From a virus: 35,249 bases of DNA. A program made the position numbers and the translations under genes. The stretch is taken from the IMG/VR virus record IMGVR_UViG_3300013004_000098, positions 1 through 35,249 of that record; one strand, written 5' to 3'. Under the pieces are notes generated by a model. The model made no database searches and was not told the origin of the DNA. It saw only the letters and a program-made list of their open reading frames with translations. Numbering within the stretch: position 1 is the first letter of the stretch; each line of letters opens with the position of its first letter. Of the stretch, positions 8,659 to 32,698 are shown piece after piece.

Positions 8659-8665
8659 TATATAA
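8659..8665 (+). promoter_or_regulatory. TATATAA promoter-like element of leader RNA copy 1
   Basis: TATATAA stands 4 nt before the conserved GAAAAATCCTC that opens the leader, in the same arrangement as copy 2 at 15418. Confidence 0.55.
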
Positions 8666-8669
8666 TATC

Positions 8670-8747
8670 GAAAAATCCTCATACCGTGAAAGAGTTATAA
8701 TCTTTGCACGACAATTCTGAGGGTTTTCTGAATGATTTCAGAAAACC
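8670..8747 (+). ncRNA. Structured leader RNA, copy 1
   Basis: GAAAAATCCTC (8670-8680) can pair with GAGGGTTTTC (8719-8728), enclosing a hairpin of CGTGAAAGA (8685-8693) with TCTTTGCACG (8701-8710). The 3' strand can instead pair locally: GGTTTTCTGAA (8722-8732) with TTCAGAAAACC (8737-8747), a perfect 11-bp stem. The two states are mutually exclusive. The outer strands, the CACGACAA segment and the position ahead of an exported protein are shared with copy 2. It is probably the 5' leader of the export genes; whether it senses anything is unknown. Confidence 0.6.
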
Positions 8748-8759
8748 TGTTTAATTGAT

Positions 8760-8774
8760 GCCCATCCCATGGGC
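8760..8774 (+). promoter_or_regulatory. Hairpin in the export-module leader
   Basis: GCCCAT and ATGGGC form a 6-bp stem around CCC, 35 nt before the chosen start of the first exported protein. A T-run follows after a gap, so it may be a weak terminator or a stability element. Confidence 0.4.
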
Positions 8775-8808
8775 TTATGGTGATTTTTTCCAACATAACT
8801 TAAAAATT

Positions 8809-9339
8809 ATGAAAATAATGGAAAAAATTATACACAAAATCCTAAGACTCCCGATTATTGTATTTAGCATCTTTATGGTGTTTTCTTTTACCCCTTCATT
8901 TGGGCAGGGTAAGTCTGTGCTCATTGGTGAGATCAACAACAAAATTGTGATTGGAAATCTAGCAGGATCTAGACCTTTAACTTTTGGATTTAGGAACCTT
9001 TTGGAAGAATATCTCCAAGAGAACGATTTTGAGATTGTTGAAGATGAAACGAAATTTGATTATAAGATCAACATCGATCTTCTATTTTTTGATGTCGAAA
9101 CAACTAAATCAAGTGTAGCAGTATTTCATAAGAATAATGCGGAAACCGTCTTAAAAATAAAGGCATACCTCTTAGATAACAAGGGGAAAAAAATAAAAGA
9201 ATGTTTAATAACCGAAAAAGCATCTGAAATTTCAGTGTCAACATTAATAGTTGACGAGGGAGGGAAGATGAATCAACAATCGGTTTCAACTGTTATTAAA
9301 AAGGTATGTGGAACAGCAATAAAACAATTATTAAATTAA
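8809..9339 (+). CDS. Secreted CsgG-like protein
   Basis: The start is chosen at MKIMEKIIHK, which puts a clean signal peptide at the N terminus (LPIIVFSIFMVFSF, cleavage near SFGQ). An upstream ATG at 8755 falls in the leader hairpin and would spoil it. The mature part follows the CsgG layout: a helix before a strand (LLEEYLQENDFEIVEDE), then KFDYKINIDLLFFDVE and a final helix after QQSVSTVIKKVCGTAIKQLL. It aligns in that order with the second CsgG-like protein at 17121. It has no lipobox. The family sits at the outer membrane and exports curli-like subunits; this copy is shorter, so it may be a periplasmic paralogue rather than a pore. Confidence 0.65.
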   Translation: MKIMEKIIHKILRLPIIVFSIFMVFSFTPSFGQGKSVLIGEINNKIVIGNLAGSRPLTFGFRNLLEEYLQENDFEIVEDETKFDYKINIDLLFFDVETTKSSVAVFHKNNAETVLKIKAYLLDNKGKKIKECLITEKASEISVSTLIVDEGGKMNQQSVSTVIKKVCGTAIKQLLN

Positions 9340-9340
9340 A

Positions 9341-10981
9341 ATGAAAAAACTACTAACAATCCTGGGAATGTTAATGTCCCTATCGTCATTTGCTCAAATT
9401 AACGTGTCTCAATCGGTAACACCTGCTCCACCCTATAAAGTTGGTGATACCTTAACTGTAAAATATAATATAAACAGGGGAACCACCCTGCCCCGCTATT
9501 TTTGGTTGAGATATTCTTTTAACAATAAGGCATTAGCGATGGTACCAAACAGTACTGTCTTTACACAGGGTAGCTCGACACAGACATTCTTTACCATTTG
9601 GAATAACTATGCATTTACACCTTCTCCAACTGTGGCTGCCACGAACTTATATGGTCAATACCAAGCTACACCCTGGGCTTACGGTGCAAATAATGATTGG
9701 AACGTGGGTCAATTAACAGTTCAAAGAGCTGATGCAGCAATTAATGGAGACATTGCAACTCAAAAATTTGTATTAAAGGATCAAAACGCGTATAACAATA
9801 TTCATAAATTAGATTTAGCATACGCTATTGATGGTGCGTCAGTAAACATTTCCCCTATTACAAAAAGTTCTACTGATCTATCATTAACAAACGTAACTGG
9901 TAATACCTCTCAATTCAAGGTTAAAGTGTTATTCCCACAAGGGTATACAATCACAGATCATAATGTTCAGCTGATGAAATTGAAAACTGATGGAACGATT
10001 GATTGGGCATTACCACCAGTTGCACAATTACCATTGGATGCTACGGGGGAAGCACTATTTACAACACAGGTTAAAGTTGGTGATTCTGTTGGTGTGTTTG
10101 TGTCTCCTGCTTCTCAAAAAGCTTGGATGAATAATGTTATTACTGTATCAGATGCTTATAAATCATTTTTAGGACATTCTCAAACTGATATTAGTGGTAA
10201 TGCTAATTTCTTTACATATCCTAATTTGGAGAAGAAAGTTGGTAATATAACTAAGAATGATACAGTATTTAATGAATCTGATTCATACTATTCATTCGCT
10301 TATGTTATGGGTCAAGATGTTTCAGCGAATGCTTTTATTCCAACACAAACTGCAACTTCTTGGAGATGGCATAGTGGTTTATTAAACCAAAGCTGGTTAG
10401 ATGGTAATATTAAGAACAAGGTAACTATTGACACCCCAATTAAAGAAGTGTATGCTGTATTTGCGTGGGGTGGAGACTTAGATTGGTCACATTCGTCTTC
10501 GACTGCGGAAATTGTAAGCAGAATTAATGCCGGCCAATTTACAAATTCAGTAAACTCAATTAATGCTAAAACGACGATGTCAACTCAATCGATGGCTTAC
10601 AGAACTGAAGCATTAGAAACAGCTAAATTGAGCGTAACATCAACACTAGAGGGGGGTAAAGTTGTTCTAACAACAAACTTAACAAAAGAAGGATTAGCAG
10701 GGTTAGAGGTTATTATGAATTATGACGAATCTAAATTGACATTAGATAATGTAATCTTTGATTCGGGATCAACCATAACAAATTTCTCTACACATAAAGA
10801 TGGTAGGTTAACCTTTGGTTCAATCGATCAATTAAAAACTGCTAGAATTAAAACAGGGAAGCCTTACAAATTAATTTTCACACCAAAGGTTCAACTGACA
10901 AATACTGCAGGTTTATTCTACTTCGTTTTATCTGATGCTGTTGATGGATTTGGTAATAAAATAAACTTAATCGTAGAATAG
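9341..10981 (+). CDS. Exported protein with degenerate dockerin-like and cohesin-like regions
   Basis: The 546-residue product has a Bacteroidota signal peptide (MKKLLTILGMLMSLSSFAQ). After a beta-rich N-terminal half, residues about 269-330 hold VSDAYKSF and KNDTVFNESDSYYSF, a degenerate version of the dockerin-like region of the next gene. Residues about 380-390 give GGDLDWSHSSS, and residues about 438-546 form a cohesin-like beta domain (LEVIMNYDESKLTLDNVIF, then YKLIFTP and FYFVLSDAVDG). The next gene repeats this order, so the two are paralogues. It starts one base after the CsgG-like gene stops. Export to the periplasm or cell surface is expected; a surface fibre or adhesin is inferred. 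Confidence 0.75.
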   Translation: MKKLLTILGMLMSLSSFAQINVSQSVTPAPPYKVGDTLTVKYNINRGTTLPRYFWLRYSFNNKALAMVPNSTVFTQGSSTQTFFTIWNNYAFTPSPTVAATNLYGQYQATPWAYGANNDWNVGQLTVQRADAAINGDIATQKFVLKDQNAYNNIHKLDLAYAIDGASVNISPITKSSTDLSLTNVTGNTSQFKVKVLFPQGYTITDHNVQLMKLKTDGTIDWALPPVAQLPLDATGEALFTTQVKVGDSVGVFVSPASQKAWMNNVITVSDAYKSFLGHSQTDISGNANFFTYPNLEKKVGNITKNDTVFNESDSYYSFAYVMGQDVSANAFIPTQTATSWRWHSGLLNQSWLDGNIKNKVTIDTPIKEVYAVFAWGGDLDWSHSSSTAEIVSRINAGQFTNSVNSINAKTTMSTQSMAYRTEALETAKLSVTSTLEGGKVVLTTNLTKEGLAGLEVIMNYDESKLTLDNVIFDSGSTITNFSTHKDGRLTFGSIDQLKTARIKTGKPYKLIFTPKVQLTNTAGLFYFVLSDAVDGFGNKINLIVE

Positions 10982-10982
10982 C

Positions 10983-13268
10983 ATGAAGAAACTATTAGTA
11001 ATATTTTTTTTACTAATTTCATTTTTAGGGTTCGGACAGAGTGTATCTGCTCCGAATTCTAAATCTTTTTTACCCTCAACAACAGGACAAGATGCTAGTG
11101 GATTTAGTCTAAGTGGATTCAATTCTACTGCAACCCTATTAGCATCAATCAGTTTAGTTAATCCACCATCAGGTACAACATTCGTATTAAACACAACAAC
11201 AGGTTTAACTGCCGCTAGTGGATTCATTTTAACAGGAAATAAAACTCGTTTAGTGGTAACGGGAACTATGGCCAACATCAATACGGCATTAGCGTCCTTA
11301 AAAATAAACACAGGTTCGGTAAAGGGTAATGTTGTATTATCAGTGGCAGCAACCGTAAATCCAACCGGATATTTCTATAACGGAACAAATGGACACTTTT
11401 ATAGACCTATAACAACCGGAACAACTTATACAAATGCTAGAACACTTGCATCACAACAAACATTCAAAGGACAGCAAGGATATTTAGTAACTATCACTTC
11501 TGCCGATGAAGATGCTTTCATTTTTAATAATGTTCCCCAAAATCAAATATGGTTTGCGTTAACCGATGAAGTGGTGGAAGGACAATGGAGAATTGATGCT
11601 GGGCCTGAAGCTGGTACTTTAATCAAAACATCAAATGGACAAACTGCAGGAAATATACAAGGACAATATAATAACTGGGCCGGTGGAGAACCAAACAATA
11701 GTGGTAACGAAGATTATGCGGTAACAAAGTGGAATGGTTCTCAATGGAATGATTTACCAAATGGGTTTAATAATCCATATGTGATTGAATTTGGAACTTG
11801 GACCAATCCTGATGATGCAACATTTACGGAGTTTTATACAAATTCGGTAACACATACAAACGGAGATGTATTAACTGCAAGATTTAATTTTGATTTTGGT
11901 AGTAATGTGGATGAAACTAAATTCACAGCCAAAGCAAATACGTTTGTAAACAATGCATGGAGTGCAACAACTAACACATCAAGACCAATAAGTGGCTTGG
12001 GTAAAGTTGATTTAACAAATGATTTAGACACTGCAAAAATAAATGACGGGGGTATTAGAGCAACAACAACAGGTGGTCAAGTAGAATGGTGTGTGGTATA
12101 TGATTACGAACCTCAAAATCAGCGATACCAAATTTTAATTGATAAAAGAGAATTTCCACAGGGTACTTCAGCAAGTAATGTTACGAGTTTGCAATTATTT
12201 GATTTGTGGAACGGAAACGTAACTTATCAATGGGATGATGGGACATGGGCTGCGTATTGGATTTATACACCAACGCAATTTAATTTCGCAGGTTCATCAT
12301 TTTCGTCTAATATAAGACGAGCTGGATTTTTTTGGGGGATAAGTGCGGAGTTTATATTCACACCAAATATAGTGTTCAAGCAACATGGAATTGATCTATC
12401 ATATACCAACCAAAACGAACTAAACACATTATACAATAATATTGTAACGGTGTCAGATGTGTTTTTAGCATTCAAAGAATTATCTAATGGTGGATTATTC
12501 GGAAACGAAAGCGGTAATGAATTTACCTCCGGTATTCAATTTATGAACGCAGATGTAGACGGTAATGGCACATTCAACGAAGCAGACACTTATAAATTAT
12601 TACAGCACCTGACTGGGCTTCAATCTCTTACTCAGTATTCTGCATTAACTTATCTGATGAAGTTGTACAATAAATCAGATTATGACGCAATTACCAAGTC
12701 TAATTGGAATACTCAATTCAACTCAACAAGAAGTTTATTTCCATTTAGTTTGAATACTGGTACATTTAATAACACGTACAACGTGAACGTAACCTGGATA
12801 GGTGATGTAAACCTTTCTCATTCGGCACAACAAACTGCAAGCGGGGTTAGTGCTAATAGTATCAGATCTATGAGTTTGATGACTAATTCTGTGTCAAACG
12901 AGATCAATGCATCTATTATGAGTGAGATCAACAATGGTAAAGTTATAGCAATCATATCATTAGATCCATTGCAGCAAGAAGTGACTGGAACTCAATTCCA
13001 ATTGAATTATGATAATACCAAATTAAAATTCGAAAAGGTGGATTTTATAACAAAGGGTAATCCAATGAATTATGGGACAGATAAAGGTACTTTTGTAAAT
13101 ATAGGTTCACTAATAACAGATGGCTCTAGTGTATTAGATAAAACTACTGAATACAGAGTTATATTCACTCCAATAGAGATTGCAAATGATATTTTAGGAT
13201 TAATGTCTATATCAACAACTGATGCAGTTAATAAAGGTGGTAAACAATTAAAAGTGAAATTAAACTAA
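10983..13268 (+). CDS. Exported C-type-lectin, dockerin-like and cohesin-like protein
   Basis: The 761-residue product has a signal peptide (KKLLVIFFLLISFLGFGQ). Residues about 129-270 are a C-type-lectin-like domain: GYLVTITSADEDAFI, IWFALTDEVVEGQWRI, NNWAGGEPNNSGNEDY (EPN-type carbohydrate site, Glu236-Asn238) and a WNDLPNG segment; the usual cysteines are absent. Residues about 524-540 hold DVDGNGTFNEADTYKLLQHL, a dockerin-type calcium loop and helix. GDVNLSHSA follows at about 607 and a cohesin-like domain at 650-760. It is co-transcribed with its paralogue (one base apart). Calcium-dependent sugar binding at the cell or virion surface is the likely activity. Confidence 0.8.
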   Translation: MKKLLVIFFLLISFLGFGQSVSAPNSKSFLPSTTGQDASGFSLSGFNSTATLLASISLVNPPSGTTFVLNTTTGLTAASGFILTGNKTRLVVTGTMANINTALASLKINTGSVKGNVVLSVAATVNPTGYFYNGTNGHFYRPITTGTTYTNARTLASQQTFKGQQGYLVTITSADEDAFIFNNVPQNQIWFALTDEVVEGQWRIDAGPEAGTLIKTSNGQTAGNIQGQYNNWAGGEPNNSGNEDYAVTKWNGSQWNDLPNGFNNPYVIEFGTWTNPDDATFTEFYTNSVTHTNGDVLTARFNFDFGSNVDETKFTAKANTFVNNAWSATTNTSRPISGLGKVDLTNDLDTAKINDGGIRATTTGGQVEWCVVYDYEPQNQRYQILIDKREFPQGTSASNVTSLQLFDLWNGNVTYQWDDGTWAAYWIYTPTQFNFAGSSFSSNIRRAGFFWGISAEFIFTPNIVFKQHGIDLSYTNQNELNTLYNNIVTVSDVFLAFKELSNGGLFGNESGNEFTSGIQFMNADVDGNGTFNEADTYKLLQHLTGLQSLTQYSALTYLMKLYNKSDYDAITKSNWNTQFNSTRSLFPFSLNTGTFNNTYNVNVTWIGDVNLSHSAQQTASGVSANSIRSMSLMTNSVSNEINASIMSEINNGKVIAIISLDPLQQEVTGTQFQLNYDNTKLKFEKVDFITKGNPMNYGTDKGTFVNIGSLITDGSSVLDKTTEYRVIFTPIEIANDILGLMSISTTDAVNKGGKQLKVKLN

Positions 13269-13618
13269 TGAAAAAAATTATATTATTCCTATCGTTAATT
13301 TTATTGTTTGGGTGCACAAAAATGGAAATAGAACCAGTACCCCCACCAACAAACCAAAACATATTCAGTGTTAGTGAAAGCTTTGTTACTGATGGACAAA
13401 CCATCAAATTTGACTTACCATCGGATGGTATTTACATATTAACCTTACTTGATAGGGAAACAAATCAAGCAATAAGCAGAGAAAAATTTGTAGGAAAATT
13501 TGGAGAAAATTCAAAAAAAATCTATACAAATTCTCTAAAATCACAATCAATGTATTTATTGTTGGAAGATTTTCAACGAAAAGAAATCAAAAAAACAATA
13601 ATAACAATAAAAAAATAA
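13268..13618 (+). CDS. Lipoprotein, T9SS-sorting-domain-like fold
   Basis: The 116-residue product has a lipoprotein signal (ILFLSLILLFGC, Cys16) and shares a base with the upstream stop. The mature part is a small beta domain (IKFDLPSDGIYILTLLDRETNQAISREK, described here in pieces) whose GIYILTL and KKIYTNSLKSQSMYLLLED segments resemble the beta-sandwich of type IX secretion C-terminal domains. It is similar to the next lipoprotein. It should be anchored in the outer membrane, with a role in assembly of the neighbouring exported proteins inferred from position. Confidence 0.75.
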   Translation: MKKIILFLSLILLFGCTKMEIEPVPPPTNQNIFSVSESFVTDGQTIKFDLPSDGIYILTLLDRETNQAISREKFVGKFGENSKKIYTNSLKSQSMYLLLEDFQRKEIKKTIITIKK

Positions 13619-13629
13619 AAAAATAAAAA

Positions 13630-14001
13630 ATGAAAAAAGTATTAATTCTATCTGCCTGTGTCGCAATATTCTCAGGCTGTTCAAAAGAAGACATGCTACC
13701 TATAATAGATCAACCAGTTAAGCAAGATCTTAAAATTGAAAATAGTGTAGGTATTAAATTGGAAACATCGTTTGTTTCTAGAGAGGTTGCTATGAATGTA
13801 AAGCTGGAAAATGCAGGAATTGTTACCATTAAAATAATGGACATTTCTAATAGAGTTGTGTCCAAGGAACAGGTTACAGCAAAGGTTGGAGACAATATAC
13901 TAAAAGTTTATACGTCTGCTTTACCTTCTTCCGCTTATAGAATAGGTCTTTATGACTCAAATAATAACCTATTAGGAATTACAGATTTTAATAAGCTGTA
14001 A
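13630..14001 (+). CDS. Lipoprotein paralogous to its neighbour
   Basis: The 123-residue product has a lipobox (ILSACVAIFSGC, Cys17). The mature domain includes VTIKIMDISNRVVSKEQV, NILKVYTSALPSSAYRIGLY and NNNLLGITDF, a pattern close to T9SS type-A sorting domains but on a lipoprotein without other domains. The order of strands matches the preceding lipoprotein (KIYTNSL versus KVYTSAL), so the pair arose by duplication. The gene follows a short A-rich spacer. The function is unknown. Confidence 0.75.
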   Translation: MKKVLILSACVAIFSGCSKEDMLPIIDQPVKQDLKIENSVGIKLETSFVSREVAMNVKLENAGIVTIKIMDISNRVVSKEQVTAKVGDNILKVYTSALPSSAYRIGLYDSNNNLLGITDFNKL

Positions 14002-14025
14002 TCCGAAATTAGGAAGAAAGACTAG

Positions 14026-15411
14026 ATGAATAAAATATTGTTATCACTCTTTTTGGTGTTTATCTCTTTTGGGGTAAATGCACAGATTTTTACCCAAACG
14101 TATGTTGATAAATGTACAGGGGAGATAAAAACTGTGATAACCACACCTATGCCAAACGGAGCGGTAATGGTTGCATTTTATAATCAAATAAGAACATTTA
14201 GTAATACAGAGGTTAACAATGGAACTGTCCAGGCTTGGCTAAATCAAGTATATTCGGACTATAGTTCAAGGCCTTGTCCTGCAATAGCGATAGTTCAACA
14301 AACAGTTCAACAAACGGTTGCCCAAGCAGCTTCCGCAGCAGCTTCACAAGCTGCATCATCTGCAGCGAGTAGTGCTGCAAGTAGTTCTGCTTCTTCTGCA
14401 GCATCTTCCTCTGCTAGCAGTGCAGCAAGTTCATCAGCAGCTTCTTCTCCACCTGCTAGTTCTGGTGGGGGTTCGCAGTCTTCTGGTGGCTCAAGCAGTT
14501 CGAGCTCTGGAGGATCCAGCTCTGGGGGAGAAGCAAAGAAAGAGAGCGGTACTTCTTCTGAGCAGAAATCTGAATCTAAATCTGAATCCAAATCTGAAAG
14601 TAAGAGCGAAGAAAAATCTGAGAGCAAACAAGAAGAAAAAAAATCGGAGAATAAGGAGGAAAAATCAGAGAGCAAAGAGGAGAAGAAAAAAGAGGAAGAA
14701 AAGAAGAAGGAGGAGGAAAAGAAAAAGAAGGAGGAAGAGAGAAAGAAGAGGCAATCTATGAGCAATCCCACTTTAGTTGCGTCAGATCTTGCAGTAACTG
14801 AAAATAAGGACGGAAGATATTCTGCTATGATTTCTACCGGGATCAGTAAATCCTCTATGACTGGTGCGGAAAGCTGGGGCTTAACCTCTATGATCTGGAC
14901 AACATTTGATCAGTTTGCTTTGAATGGTGGTTACACTAAGATGAATTTTAAAAAAGGAGCTTTAAACAGCATTAATTCATATTCCTTTACTGCAGCTTAC
15001 CTACAGGGAAATTACATGCTTATGCAGGGTTATACGTACATTAAACCAGATCCTAAGATAGGAACATATGGATATAACATTGGAGTGGTTAGTTTATTTC
15101 TAAAGAACGGGAACAAATATGATTATTCAATGTCTGTGTCCTCTGTAGGATTCTGGACAAAAATCTATCAAGTAAATAGAAAAGTCTCGATCTCTCCTCA
15201 AATATTTATTACCAGTTCCCCTATAGCATGGAACCCCTCAACCAATCAAACAATAGTCAATCGACAATATGGATTCATGTCTGGCTTCTCGTATGACTAT
15301 AAATTAACTCAAAGATTTGGGTTAAATCTTAATTATAGATTTTCGGGGGGTACCCAACCAGGAACAAAAATATTGCACAATTTCATGATTGGATCCAGAA
15401 TTATGCTGTAA
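14026..15411 (+). CDS. Exported protein with Ala/Ser and Lys/Glu tracts and a beta-barrel-like C terminus
   Basis: The 461-residue product starts with a signal peptide (MNKILLSLFLVFISFGVNAQ). A short folded part with two cysteines (DKCTGEIKTV, RPCPAIA) precedes an Ala/Ser-rich stretch (about 95-180) and a long Ser/Lys/Glu then Lys/Glu coiled tract (about 180-245). The C-terminal 210 residues alternate polar and hydrophobic residues in antiparallel-strand fashion (YSAMISTGISKSS, GFMSGFSYDYKLT, LNLNYRFSGG) and end FMIGSRIML, which suggests an outer-membrane beta-barrel. The charged tract may span the periplasm or reach peptidoglycan. It is the last gene before the second leader RNA. Confidence 0.75.
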   Translation: MNKILLSLFLVFISFGVNAQIFTQTYVDKCTGEIKTVITTPMPNGAVMVAFYNQIRTFSNTEVNNGTVQAWLNQVYSDYSSRPCPAIAIVQQTVQQTVAQAASAAASQAASSAASSAASSSASSAASSSASSAASSSAASSPPASSGGGSQSSGGSSSSSSGGSSSGGEAKKESGTSSEQKSESKSESKSESKSEEKSESKQEEKKSENKEEKSESKEEKKKEEEKKKEEEKKKKEEERKKRQSMSNPTLVASDLAVTENKDGRYSAMISTGISKSSMTGAESWGLTSMIWTTFDQFALNGGYTKMNFKKGALNSINSYSFTAAYLQGNYMLMQGYTYIKPDPKIGTYGYNIGVVSLFLKNGNKYDYSMSVSSVGFWTKIYQVNRKVSISPQIFITSSPIAWNPSTNQTIVNRQYGFMSGFSYDYKLTQRFGLNLNYRFSGGTQPGTKILHNFMIGSRIML

Positions 15412-15417
15412 AAAAGA

Positions 15418-15424
15418 TATATAA
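15418..15424 (+). promoter_or_regulatory. TATATAA promoter-like element of leader RNA copy 2
   Basis: TATATAA lies 3 nt before the conserved GAAAAATCCTC of the leader and 7 nt after the upstream stop codon. Confidence 0.55.
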
Positions 15425-15427
15425 AGT

Positions 15428-15548
15428 GAAAAATCCTCATACTGTTCGAAAGAAAACACGACAAGCCGGCCTTAATTCTTAAAAGGCTCTGGATATGTAA
15501 CATCTTTCGAAATATTCCAAAAGTGAATTTCAGGTTCGAGGGTTTTTC
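15428..15548 (+). ncRNA. Structured leader RNA, copy 2
   Basis: GAAAAATCCTC (15428-15438) pairs with GAGGGTTTTTC (15538-15548) over 11 positions with one G-T wobble. Inside, TTCGAAAG (15445-15452) pairs perfectly with CTTTCGAA (15504-15511), and GCCTT (15469-15473) pairs with AAGGC (15483-15487). Both outer strands, the CACGACAA segment and TCTGAAT after the 3' strand recur in copy 1, while the interiors differ and remain paired, as expected for a conserved RNA structure. It ends 18 nt before the next start codon, so it is most simply a 5' leader of the membrane-protein genes. Confidence 0.65.
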
Positions 15549-15566
15549 TGAATATAAAATTTAAAA

Positions 15567-15884
15567 ATGTCAGAAGAAACACAAGATCACAACGACGGAA
15601 CCTGGTCAGGTTTAAAGAAAACTATTGTTGGCGTTATCACAACTGCGGTAACAGCGGGAGGGGTTTGGATCTCAACACTATTAGGTGGGGGAGACAAAGA
15701 AGCTGCACCAGTTGCTGCACCAGCTCCGGTAATTAACATTACTAACTCTAACCAGCAAGCTCAGCAAGCTGCAGGTGGTGGTAAAACAGTTATCATTAAA
15801 GAAAAAGAAACTGTTAAGGAACCAGCTAAACCTGTTAAGAAAAAAGAAGGTGATGAGTTTAAGGAAGAAGCACCAAAGTGGTAA
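15567..15884 (+). CDS. Single-span membrane protein, lysis candidate
   Basis: The 105-residue product has one membrane segment (TIVGVITTAVTAGGVWISTLLG, residues about 19-40) after a polar N terminus, then an Ala/Pro linker, a Gln-rich part and a Lys/Glu tail (KEKETVKEPAKPVKKKEGDE). It is the first of four consecutive small membrane protein genes behind leader RNA copy 2. Its layout fits an inner-membrane spanin or accessory holin; the sequence alone does not decide. Confidence 0.65.
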   Translation: MSEETQDHNDGTWSGLKKTIVGVITTAVTAGGVWISTLLGGGDKEAAPVAAPAPVINITNSNQQAQQAAGGGKTVIIKEKETVKEPAKPVKKKEGDEFKEEAPKW

Positions 15885-16532: not shown

Positions 16533-16562
16533 TCTCTTGTAAAATAATATAATAGCACGACT

Positions 16563-16823: not shown

Positions 16824-16857
16824 AAGAAAGGGCGGAAACACGACTCCGCTCTTTCTT
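16824..16857 (+). terminator. Hairpin after the holin candidate
   Basis: AAGAAAGGGCGG and CCGCTCTTTCTT pair over 12 bp with one G-T wobble around a 10-nt loop. The stem is strong but only a weak T-tract follows, so termination may be partial. Confidence 0.6.
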
Positions 16858-17849: not shown

Positions 17850-17897
17850 GTGTTTAAGACTATTCTTTAGTTACACGACCTAAAGTAAAGTATTAAA

Positions 17898-30601: not shown

Positions 30602-30611
30602 CGATATATAA

Positions 30612-31029
30612 CAACCAAAGATCTTTAAAATATTGGTGATTTGATTTCGAAGCGGCAGATTTGGATACTTCAAACTATACAAATAAGCAACGGATTGGGC
30701 TTCAATGTCCAATCTAAAAAAAGAGAGATTCCCTCCCACCGGGTAATACTCACCCAGACGCTAGGCGACTGGAGCAATTGAACGGGTATTTCCAGTAGAA
30801 ACTGGGGTGTCAGAGACCAGAAGGCTGGAGATTCGCTTCCTTAAGGAGCAACCCCAAACTGGGTATTCTCGAAACAAAAAACCAAATTTAAAAATACTAT
30901 CCGACGCGGGATAGGGAGTTACTTCAAACTGGAAAACGAAAAAACACTCCCTCTCAATATTCTCGGTAAGTTTCTTTATACTAGACAATGTATTATGGAG
31001 GCCTATCGAGAACCGATAAGGCCTTTTTT
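30612..31029 (+). ncRNA. Large structured noncoding RNA upstream of Ro60, candidate Y-like RNA
   Basis: The ~420-nt gap between thioredoxin and the Ro60 gene has no supported gene. Visible stems: GATTGGG/TCCAATC (30693-30714), GGGT/ACCC (30741-30755), CCAG/CTGG (30792-30805), GGGGT/ACCCC (30804-30855) enclosing CCAG/CTGG (30817-30828) and a GGAGC hairpin (30835-30849), CTATCC/GGATAG (30897-30914) and GGGAGT/ACTCCC (30914-30951). Adjacent stems share a few bases, so not all can coexist. TACTTCAAACT occurs at 30666 and 30920, and TATTCTCG at 30864 and 30958. Promoter-like boxes precede and a terminator ends it. Ro proteins bind Y RNAs, so this is a candidate partner, but it is longer than known bacterial Y RNAs. 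Confidence 0.7.
31000..31029 (+). terminator. Intrinsic terminator of the large RNA
   Basis: GGCCTATCG pairs with CGATA-A-GGCC (one bulged A) around AGAAC, followed by six T. It stands 28 nt before the Ro60 start codon. Confidence 0.9.
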
Positions 31030-31057
31030 GTTTTATAACCATAACAAAATATCAATT

Positions 31058-32698
31058 ATGTCTAGATTATCAGAATATTCAGTAAAAGAAACATCAACTA
31101 TAAGAAAGCACGAAGATGCTGTAGTTGAAAATTTTATGGGTGGCAATTCTTACACCCTTAGTCCATTACAAGCTCTTAAAATTGTAGCTGCTAGCTCTAT
31201 CTTTGGAGAGCCTCAATACTATAGAGATGGTTTAAATACTTCTAAGACGATAAGCAACCATTCTACAATTTTAGAATATTCCATTCTCAAGGATTTATTT
31301 AAAGACAATACCACCGCTGTAGATGTGTTTACGAGCGCAATTGATCGTGCCTTAGATTATGACTTCAAAGGAACTTTAGACTTAGCTACGGAGCTAAGAA
31401 CGGTGTTTTACATGAGGTTAAATCCTTCTGTTATTTTTGTTCGCGCTTCTATGCACTCAGGAAGGGCAGAGTTCAATGAAAAACATCCAGGTTATATGAA
31501 AAACGTGGGAAAATCAATCGCTTCTCGCCCTGATGATCTAACCAACCAGTTCGATTATTTCATGTTTTTGAACAAGTCTAAAAACAAGTTAAGTTCTTTG
31601 ATCAAAAGAACATGGGCTGAAAAATTGCAGGAATATTCCAGGTATCAATTAAACAAATACAAAGGGAAAAAACTAATTGATCTGGTTAGAATTTCTCATG
31701 CTTTTAGTCAGGATATTGACGAGCTAATGAAGACCGGAACATTAAAGGTAGAGGAAAGTGAAAGAACTTGGGAGAATTTAAAATCTGAGGGAAAGACCTG
31801 GACTGAAATTTTAGAAAAAATTGAAATTCCACACATGGCTCTTTTAAGAAATCTGAGAGGAATTTTCACTGAGATCAATGATGCAGAGGTCGCTAAAAAT
31901 GTATCAGAGAAACTTAAGTCCGGGGTATTAAACGGGAAGCAATTTCCTTTTAGATACTGGTCTGCTTATAAAGCTATTGGGAAAGAGAACGAGGTTAACC
32001 ATAAAGGAATTCTAATGGATGCTCTGGAGGAGTGTATGGATATTGCAGTTGATAATATGCCAAAGCTAAAAGGTAAAACTATTTCTCTTTCTGATAATTC
32101 AGGTTCTGCCTGGGGTTCATGTAACTCTGAATATGGATCTGTTTATGTAGCTGAGATCGCAAACCTATCTTCTTTGATAACAGGTAAGAATTCAGAGGAA
32201 GGAGAGATAGGATTATTTGGGGATCGCTTAATTGTTGAGCCGGTTTCTAAAAGAGACGGACTTCTTTCTCAGCTTAATAAGGTTAATAATATTGAAAAGG
32301 AAGAAGGAAGGATCGGAGGAGGCACGGAAAATGGAATTTGGTTATTCTTTGATGATGCTATCAGAAATAAAAAACATTACGATAATATTTTTATCTATTC
32401 TGATATGCAAGCTGGCCATGGCGGATTATATGGAATAAGATCGGAAGACTATAAGGATTTTATCCACGGCGGAGGTGGATTTGGAAGACATATTGATGTA
32501 TTAGCTCTCGTTACAAAATACCGCAAGGATGTAAATTCAAAAGTTAATGTTTTCAGCGTTCAGGTTGCAGGATATAATAACAGTGTACTTCCCGAAAATT
32601 TATACAGGGGAGCAATTCTAGCAGGATGGACAGGCAAAGAACCAATTTTTGCTAAAGCTATTATCGATACTTGGGATCAGATAGAATCTAATCAATAA
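31058..32698 (+). CDS. Ro60/TROVE-domain RNA-binding protein
   Basis: The start is at MSRLSEYSVKETST; an upstream in-frame ATG at 30995 falls in the terminator and is rejected. The 546-residue product has the Ro layout: an N-terminal alpha-helical HEAT-like ring (TROVE, about 15-335, for example YTLSPLQALKIVAASSIFGE and GTLDLATELRTVFYMRLNPS) and a von Willebrand A-like domain with a complete MIDAS motif, DNSGS at 346-350, a Thr in GGGTENG and the acidic YSDMQAG. Ro60 binds Y RNAs and misfolded RNAs in its ring. The large RNA just upstream makes a two-part RNP likely. The transcript ends at a UUCG terminator. Confidence 0.92.
   Translation: MSRLSEYSVKETSTIRKHEDAVVENFMGGNSYTLSPLQALKIVAASSIFGEPQYYRDGLNTSKTISNHSTILEYSILKDLFKDNTTAVDVFTSAIDRALDYDFKGTLDLATELRTVFYMRLNPSVIFVRASMHSGRAEFNEKHPGYMKNVGKSIASRPDDLTNQFDYFMFLNKSKNKLSSLIKRTWAEKLQEYSRYQLNKYKGKKLIDLVRISHAFSQDIDELMKTGTLKVEESERTWENLKSEGKTWTEILEKIEIPHMALLRNLRGIFTEINDAEVAKNVSEKLKSGVLNGKQFPFRYWSAYKAIGKENEVNHKGILMDALEECMDIAVDNMPKLKGKTISLSDNSGSAWGSCNSEYGSVYVAEIANLSSLITGKNSEEGEIGLFGDRLIVEPVSKRDGLLSQLNKVNNIEKEEGRIGGGTENGIWLFFDDAIRNKKHYDNIFIYSDMQAGHGGLYGIRSEDYKDFIHGGGGFGRHIDVLALVTKYRKDVNSKVNVFSVQVAGYNNSVLPENLYRGAILAGWTGKEPIFAKAIIDTWDQIESNQ

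Follow-up and report, generated by a model that had tools for sequence, protein, structure and literature searches.

Two homologous structured leader RNAs from one phage group, a possible two-state translational switch ahead of genes for exported-looking proteins

The stretch of DNA analysed here, referred to as the window, is the 35,249-bp IMG/VR record IMGVR_UViG_3300013004_000098, which is complete as a record yet covers only part of a larger phage; genes for portal, tail sheath and head protease are present in G001, a relative of 245 kb. Judging from promoter style and gene content, the leader-carrying phages seem to infect Bacteroidota. No tRNA or tmRNA was found in the window. At two places a structured 5′ untranslated region lies directly ahead of a gene and in the same orientation, an arrangement that recurs in several genomes:

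8659–8665, + strand: TATATAA element of leader 1, 4 nt 5′ of the presumed RNA start (strand bias, constant spacing)
8670–8790, + strand: leader 1 (kind B), fold z −6.3, with the same layout in six orthologues and compensatory changes
8809–9339, + strand: gene behind leader 1, starting at 8809 or 8818, product with a signal-like N-terminus
15418–15424, + strand: TATATAA element of leader 2, 3 nt 5′ of the presumed RNA start
15428–15548, + strand: leader 2 (kind A), fold z −3.5, with homologues in L015, L058, L062, L070, L073, L078, L108 and G002
15567–15884, + strand: gene following leader 2, for a small protein that has a single hydrophobic segment

The first-pass annotation had described both leaders as preceding genes for membrane or exported proteins, and both products do look so, the first by its signal-like N-terminus and the second by its hydrophobic segment. 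The 8809–9339 protein is predicted at low confidence to have a PelC/LptE/CsgG-like fold (mean pLDDT 69). Gene 15567–15884 is widespread among related phages, whether or not they carry the leader, and was found in none of the named phages in INPHARED. PDB sequence searches returned nothing useful. Positions 9341–13268 encode two large exported-looking proteins with a common C-terminal domain, the second of which has a C-type lectin domain; the predicted structure model of the protein at 9341 is poor. A carbamoyltransferase with both Pfam halves is encoded at 1282–2961; L100 and G001 have it too, likewise ahead of the same module. That the two gene blocks form one export module is a guess.

TATATAA, GAAAAATCCTCATAC and CACGACAA occur in the same order in both segments, as originally described. 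TATATAA had been counted as part of the leader RNA; however, the window has 18 occurrences on its + strand and 5 on its − strand, and the commonest position of those that precede no leader is 3–5 nt 5′ of an ATG. This bias and position suggest that it is a phage-specific, promoter-like element outside the leader RNA. The distance from TATATAA to GAAAAATCC is 4 nt in leader 1 and 3 nt in leader 2, and is similar in the homologues. Because this spacing is constant, the leader RNA most likely starts at or near the G of GAAAAATCC, which places the predicted transcription start at the 5′ end of the leader element and not downstream of it. Elsewhere in the window, at 844, 1034, 5103, 7051, 7497, 26569, 28984, 32733 and 33375, TATATAA lies 3–5 nt before an ATG, and the mRNAs of these genes are probably near-leaderless transcripts from the phage-specific promoter.

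Pattern searches of IMG/VR combined with protein searches recovered leader copies from roughly twelve records of related phages. Where a record spans the region (the window, G001, G002, G003, G004 and G005), it carries two copies, 7–8 kb apart. We refer to the orthologues of copy 1 as kind B (L089, L090, L091, L092, L093 and L094, together with leader 1 of the window) and to those of copy 2 as kind A (L015, L058, L062, L070, L073, L078, L108 and one in G002). A third leader context, kind C, precedes a paralogue of gene 15897 in L100 and in G002. Relatives from other phage groups with the same genes had no leader, and none was seen beside remoter relatives of gene 8809 or of gene 15567. Four GTDB matches in bacterial genomes were judged by inspection to be due to chance, and apparent third copies at G001:176307 and G003:94241 were set aside as chance-like pattern matches without the promoter-plus-leader layout. 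As far as these collections show, the leader family appears specific to one phage group.

Leader 1 is predicted to fold into a multi-helix RNA closed by its own ends:

8670–8677 with 8782–8789, + strand: helix P1a
8679–8683 with 8776–8780, + strand: helix P1b
8685–8693 with 8701–8710, + strand: helix P2
8712–8716 with 8753–8757, + strand: helix P3a
8721–8732 with 8737–8748, + strand: helix P3b
8760–8765 with 8769–8774, + strand: helix P4

This fold corrects the first description of copy 1 in two respects. The proposed extent, 8659–8747, is too short, since P1 closes at 8789 and the RNA element ends near 8790; and GAGGGTTTTCTGAA (8719–8732), taken to be the closing strand, contains the 5′ arm of the inner hairpin P3b, whereas GAAAAATC (8670–8677) pairs with GATTTTTT (8782–8789), as it also does in the orthologues. 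All seven kind B leaders fold as P1a, P1b, P2, P3 and P4, with z scores between −4.4 and −6.9. The covariation that had been proposed from the two window copies is unreadable from those two alone, but is present among the orthologues of copy 1: a hand structural alignment, which leans towards its own structure, shows 15 of 39 pairs with both partners substituted, and standard pairs in 263 of 271 cells. RNAalifold found four double-changed pairs on a MAFFT alignment whose 3′ end is shifted by one base. Examples of compensatory change are CGTG/CACG to GGTA/TACC at the base of P2, a UA pair to AU in P1b, and UCCC/GGGA to GCCC/GGGC in P4. The conserved P1–P4 fold of kind B is thus well supported. 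The P1 5′ arm is nearly invariant across leaders, and a comparison of swapped P1 arms is for this reason uninformative. An intrinsic terminator or attenuator was considered for leader 1 and rejected: P4 lies ~9 nt before the U-run, which is itself paired in P1 or P5 (described below).

In leader 2, the closing helix proposed by the first-pass annotation holds:

15428–15438 with 15538–15548, + strand: helix P1 of leader 2

Of ten leaders of kinds A and C, eight have an A-run and a U-run of the same length in P1; in L015 and L058 a single C interrupts the U-run, with no change in stem length. In leader 2, the P2 arm UUCGAAAGA pairs with UCUUUCGAA, enclosing CACGAC and a GC-rich hairpin. Fold z scores of kinds A and C range from −2.2 to −4.9, and support for a conserved structure with compensatory changes is weaker in kind A than in kind B. 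A search of 1.1 Mb with a covariance model made only from kind B sequences gave leaders of kinds A and C as the only other plausible sense-strand matches, at E values of 0.0015 to 0.27; copy 2 of the window was not listed. Apparent noise starts at E 0.29, so the weakest of these matches are marginal, and a good deal of the score probably reflects the shared 5′ sequence. Recovery of copy-2-type leaders by the kind B model, together with homologues bearing compensatory changes, supports the view that both segments are homologous structured leaders. Rfam 15 gave no match in the window at gathering cut-offs, and relaxed thresholds gave nothing credible for leaders of either kind, in agreement with the first-pass annotation, which knew of no named family with this layout. 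The leaders are structured cis-acting leader RNAs in kind, not assigned to a family.

The U-rich 3′ strand of P1 can pair downstream instead, around or just after the start codon, in a helix that we call P5:

8784–8827, + strand: P5 of leader 1, 8784–8792 (UUUUUUCCA) with 8819–8827 (UGGAAAAAA), sharing the P1 3′ strand
8794–8798 with 8807–8811, + strand: inner pairing of leader 1 P5, CAUAA with UUAUG
15544–15577, + strand: P5 of leader 2, 15544–15551 (UUUUCUGA) with 15570–15577 (UCAGAAGA)

In leader 2, UUUUCUGA and UCAGAAGA flank the AUG, and UAU at 15553–15555 can pair with the AUG at 15567–15569; the corresponding pairing in L015 is CAUU/AAUG. P5 lies directly at the AUG in L091, L092 and L094 (UUUUUUCCUA/UAGGAAAAAA) and in L089 and L090 (UUUUUCCAAU/AUUGGAAAAA), and in codons 3–6 in kind C (UUUUCUAGA/UCUAGAAAA); in L062, L070 and L108 it joins CAUU to AAUG. 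Its sequence changes while pairing is kept, from CCAAU/AUUGG in L089/L090 to CCUA/UAGG in L091/L092/L094, and from UCUGA/UCAGA in copy 2 (codon 2 UCA) to GCCAUU/AAUGAGC in L062/L070/L108 (codon 2 AGC). In most leaders the sequence thus supports a helix that would exclude P1 and hide the start codon. The three exceptions are L073 and G002_A, where P5 was not seen, and L078, whose competing hairpin does not reach the start codon.

Energy calculations are consistent with this competition. In 16 of 17 leaders the P1 3′ strand folds more stably with the real downstream region than with a shuffled one, and cognate P5 arms average −8.4 kcal/mol compared with −6.0 for arms swapped between classes. The start-region fold has a mean z of −1.85 in the leaders versus −0.08 in 150 other genes of these phages (p = 0.006 with one leader per class). 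When the first 13 nt were kept unpaired, as a proxy for P5, the resulting fold differed from the P1 fold by no more than 3 kcal/mol in 11 of 17 leaders; a margin of 4.5 kcal/mol takes in 14 of the 17. Ensemble predictions populate both states across the leader set. P5 is best supported in the relatives' leaders of kinds B and C; for the two copies in the window its support is moderate.

Our favoured reading is that the leaders act as a two-state translational switch, a reading to which we assign a probability of about one half. The mRNAs of both leaders would start at the phage-specific TATATAA promoter. In the first state, the 5′ end (GAAAAAAUCC) would pair with the U-rich strand (GGAUUUUUUC) upstream of the gene to form P1, which would close the multi-helix RNA and leave the start region freer; in the second, the same U-rich strand would pair around or just after the start codon as P5, hiding it. 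As P1 and P5 are mutually exclusive, the leader would set translation of the genes behind it. We infer that switching occurs, with P1 the ON and P5 the OFF state. The P1 5′ strand is transcribed first, and P1 would therefore form before P5; P5 could follow by slow refolding, through the binding of a regulator or once the 5′ end is lost. The state may accordingly be set by folding order, an intact 5′ end, or a regulator binding CACGA(C). Against a switch, some pairing between a U-run and an A-rich start region is expected by default, leader sequences from one phage group amount to few independent events, and the start codon of W1 and L015 is still partly paired when P1 forms.

Precedents exist in the lambda cIII mRNA, the MS2 maturation-gene leader and the hok mRNA, in each of which one strand takes part in two exclusive helices, one of them hiding the start codon. 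The strand shared by P1 and P5 resembles these systems and translational riboswitches. The phage leaders differ from lambda cIII, MS2 and hok in that the junction is closed by the mRNA's own 5′ end; they have no sequence or Rfam relation to them and no known ligand, and their switching is a prediction.

The main rival is a static 5′ shield, in which P1 would tie in the 5′ end and protect abundant late mRNAs from 5′-end-dependent decay, P5 being incidental. P1 does include the presumed 5′-terminal bases, the folds are very stable, and some kind A leaders have a weak P5. However, kinds B and C keep a strong P5 on the P1 strand through sequence changes that preserve pairing, and we regard a purely static role as possible but not probable.

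The hexamer CACGAC raises a different alternative. It is the most enriched hexamer in 5′ untranslated regions of leader-positive phages (25 occurrences, 0.68 expected) and is not among the top 5′ UTR hexamers of leader-negative relatives. Across nine records, which are related and not independent, 46 of its 116 occurrences fall in 5′ untranslated regions, compared with 26 of 1669 for eleven control hexamers, a count that leaves out the overlapping ACGACC. All five intergenic occurrences in the window lie between 8.7 and 17.9 kb on the sense strand:

8707–8712, + strand: CACGAC in leader 1, on the 3′ side of P2
15457–15462, + strand: CACGAC in leader 2
16556–16561, + strand: CACGAC one base 5′ of the ATG of gene 16563
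16824–16857, + strand: 13-bp hairpin upstream of gene 16878, with CACGAC (16839–16844) in its loop
17865–17885, + strand: hairpin CUUUAG..CUAAAG upstream of gene 17898, with CACGAC (17874–17879) in its loop

The last hairpin is kept in G001–G004 and G006–G008. Within the leaders the site lies in or next to P2, and as CACGA in the P3 loop of kind B. The early-type genes L117, L129, L258 and L266 (in G003, G002 and G007) have a CATTTTT...TATATTT(G/A) promoter and a short 5′ untranslated region ending in CACGAC directly before the ATG. CACGAC may thus be a candidate binding site of a regulator. Two known types of site offer comparison. CsrA/RsmA operators carry a short ANGGA motif, placed in the loops of hairpins and beside start codons, with several sites per regulon; CACGA(C) shares the loops, start codons and multiple sites, but is not ANGGA, and no such protein was identified. 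At T4 RegA operators, a recurring sequence marks the start codons of phage genes; CACGAC likewise recurs at phage start codons, but as a fixed hexamer, often in structured RNA, and a RegA (PF01818) profile gave no match in seven records, with control genomes equally silent.

The leaders could therefore be operators without switching, in which a phage RNA-binding protein would repress or activate translation by binding CACGA(C) displayed on their hairpins, P1 serving only as a scaffold. The enrichment and the placement of the motif at 16839 and 17874, or directly before ATGs, favour this reading. Several kind A leaders, however, lack CACGAC inside the RNA, and the searches yielded no binding protein; we think it unlikely. 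Somewhat less doubtful, though still tentative, is a combination with the two-state switch: a phage-wide post-transcriptional circuit in which a putative phage RNA-binding regulator would recognise CACGA(C) at start codons and in the loops of hairpins, in early and late mRNAs alike, and set the P1/P5 switch of the two large leaders, timing exported-protein synthesis.

The phage also encodes, at 30995–32698, a TROVE (Ro60-like) protein ~50% identical to Bacillus phage G gp540, and the leaders resemble Y RNA in their paired ends and variable interior, with a 3′ U-run. Release of the leaders as Y-RNA-like ligands of this protein would fit the presence of TROVE in leader-positive records that reach the locus; it was not found in 12 leader-negative records, a co-occurrence that reflects one lineage only. 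Unlike Y RNA, the leaders are 5′ untranslated regions abutting genes, ~15–22 kb from TROVE. Directly upstream of the TROVE gene, a ~420-nt non-coding stretch (30605–31030) between TATATAA and a terminator-like hairpin is conserved in G001, G002 and G004, with fold z of −2.8 to −4.6 and no Rfam match, and is a candidate phage Ro-associated RNA. Because TROVE has this separate conserved, structured RNA beside it, we rate the Y-RNA reading as very unlikely. Least credible is a DNA element, such as a duplicated recombination or mobile-element end: in five records two direct copies do bracket similarly sized blocks, but their interiors differ while RNA pairing stays, and copies occur only behind promoter-like elements, in the sense direction, ahead of genes.

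We found no report of the leader or of the CACGAC motif in the open-access literature. To our knowledge, large, conserved, switch-like mRNA leaders have seldom been described in phages, and RNA-based regulation in Bacteroidota is little explored. The leader family offers a testable two-state leader together with a short RNA motif common to early and late genes, and a route to a putative phage RNA-binding regulator.
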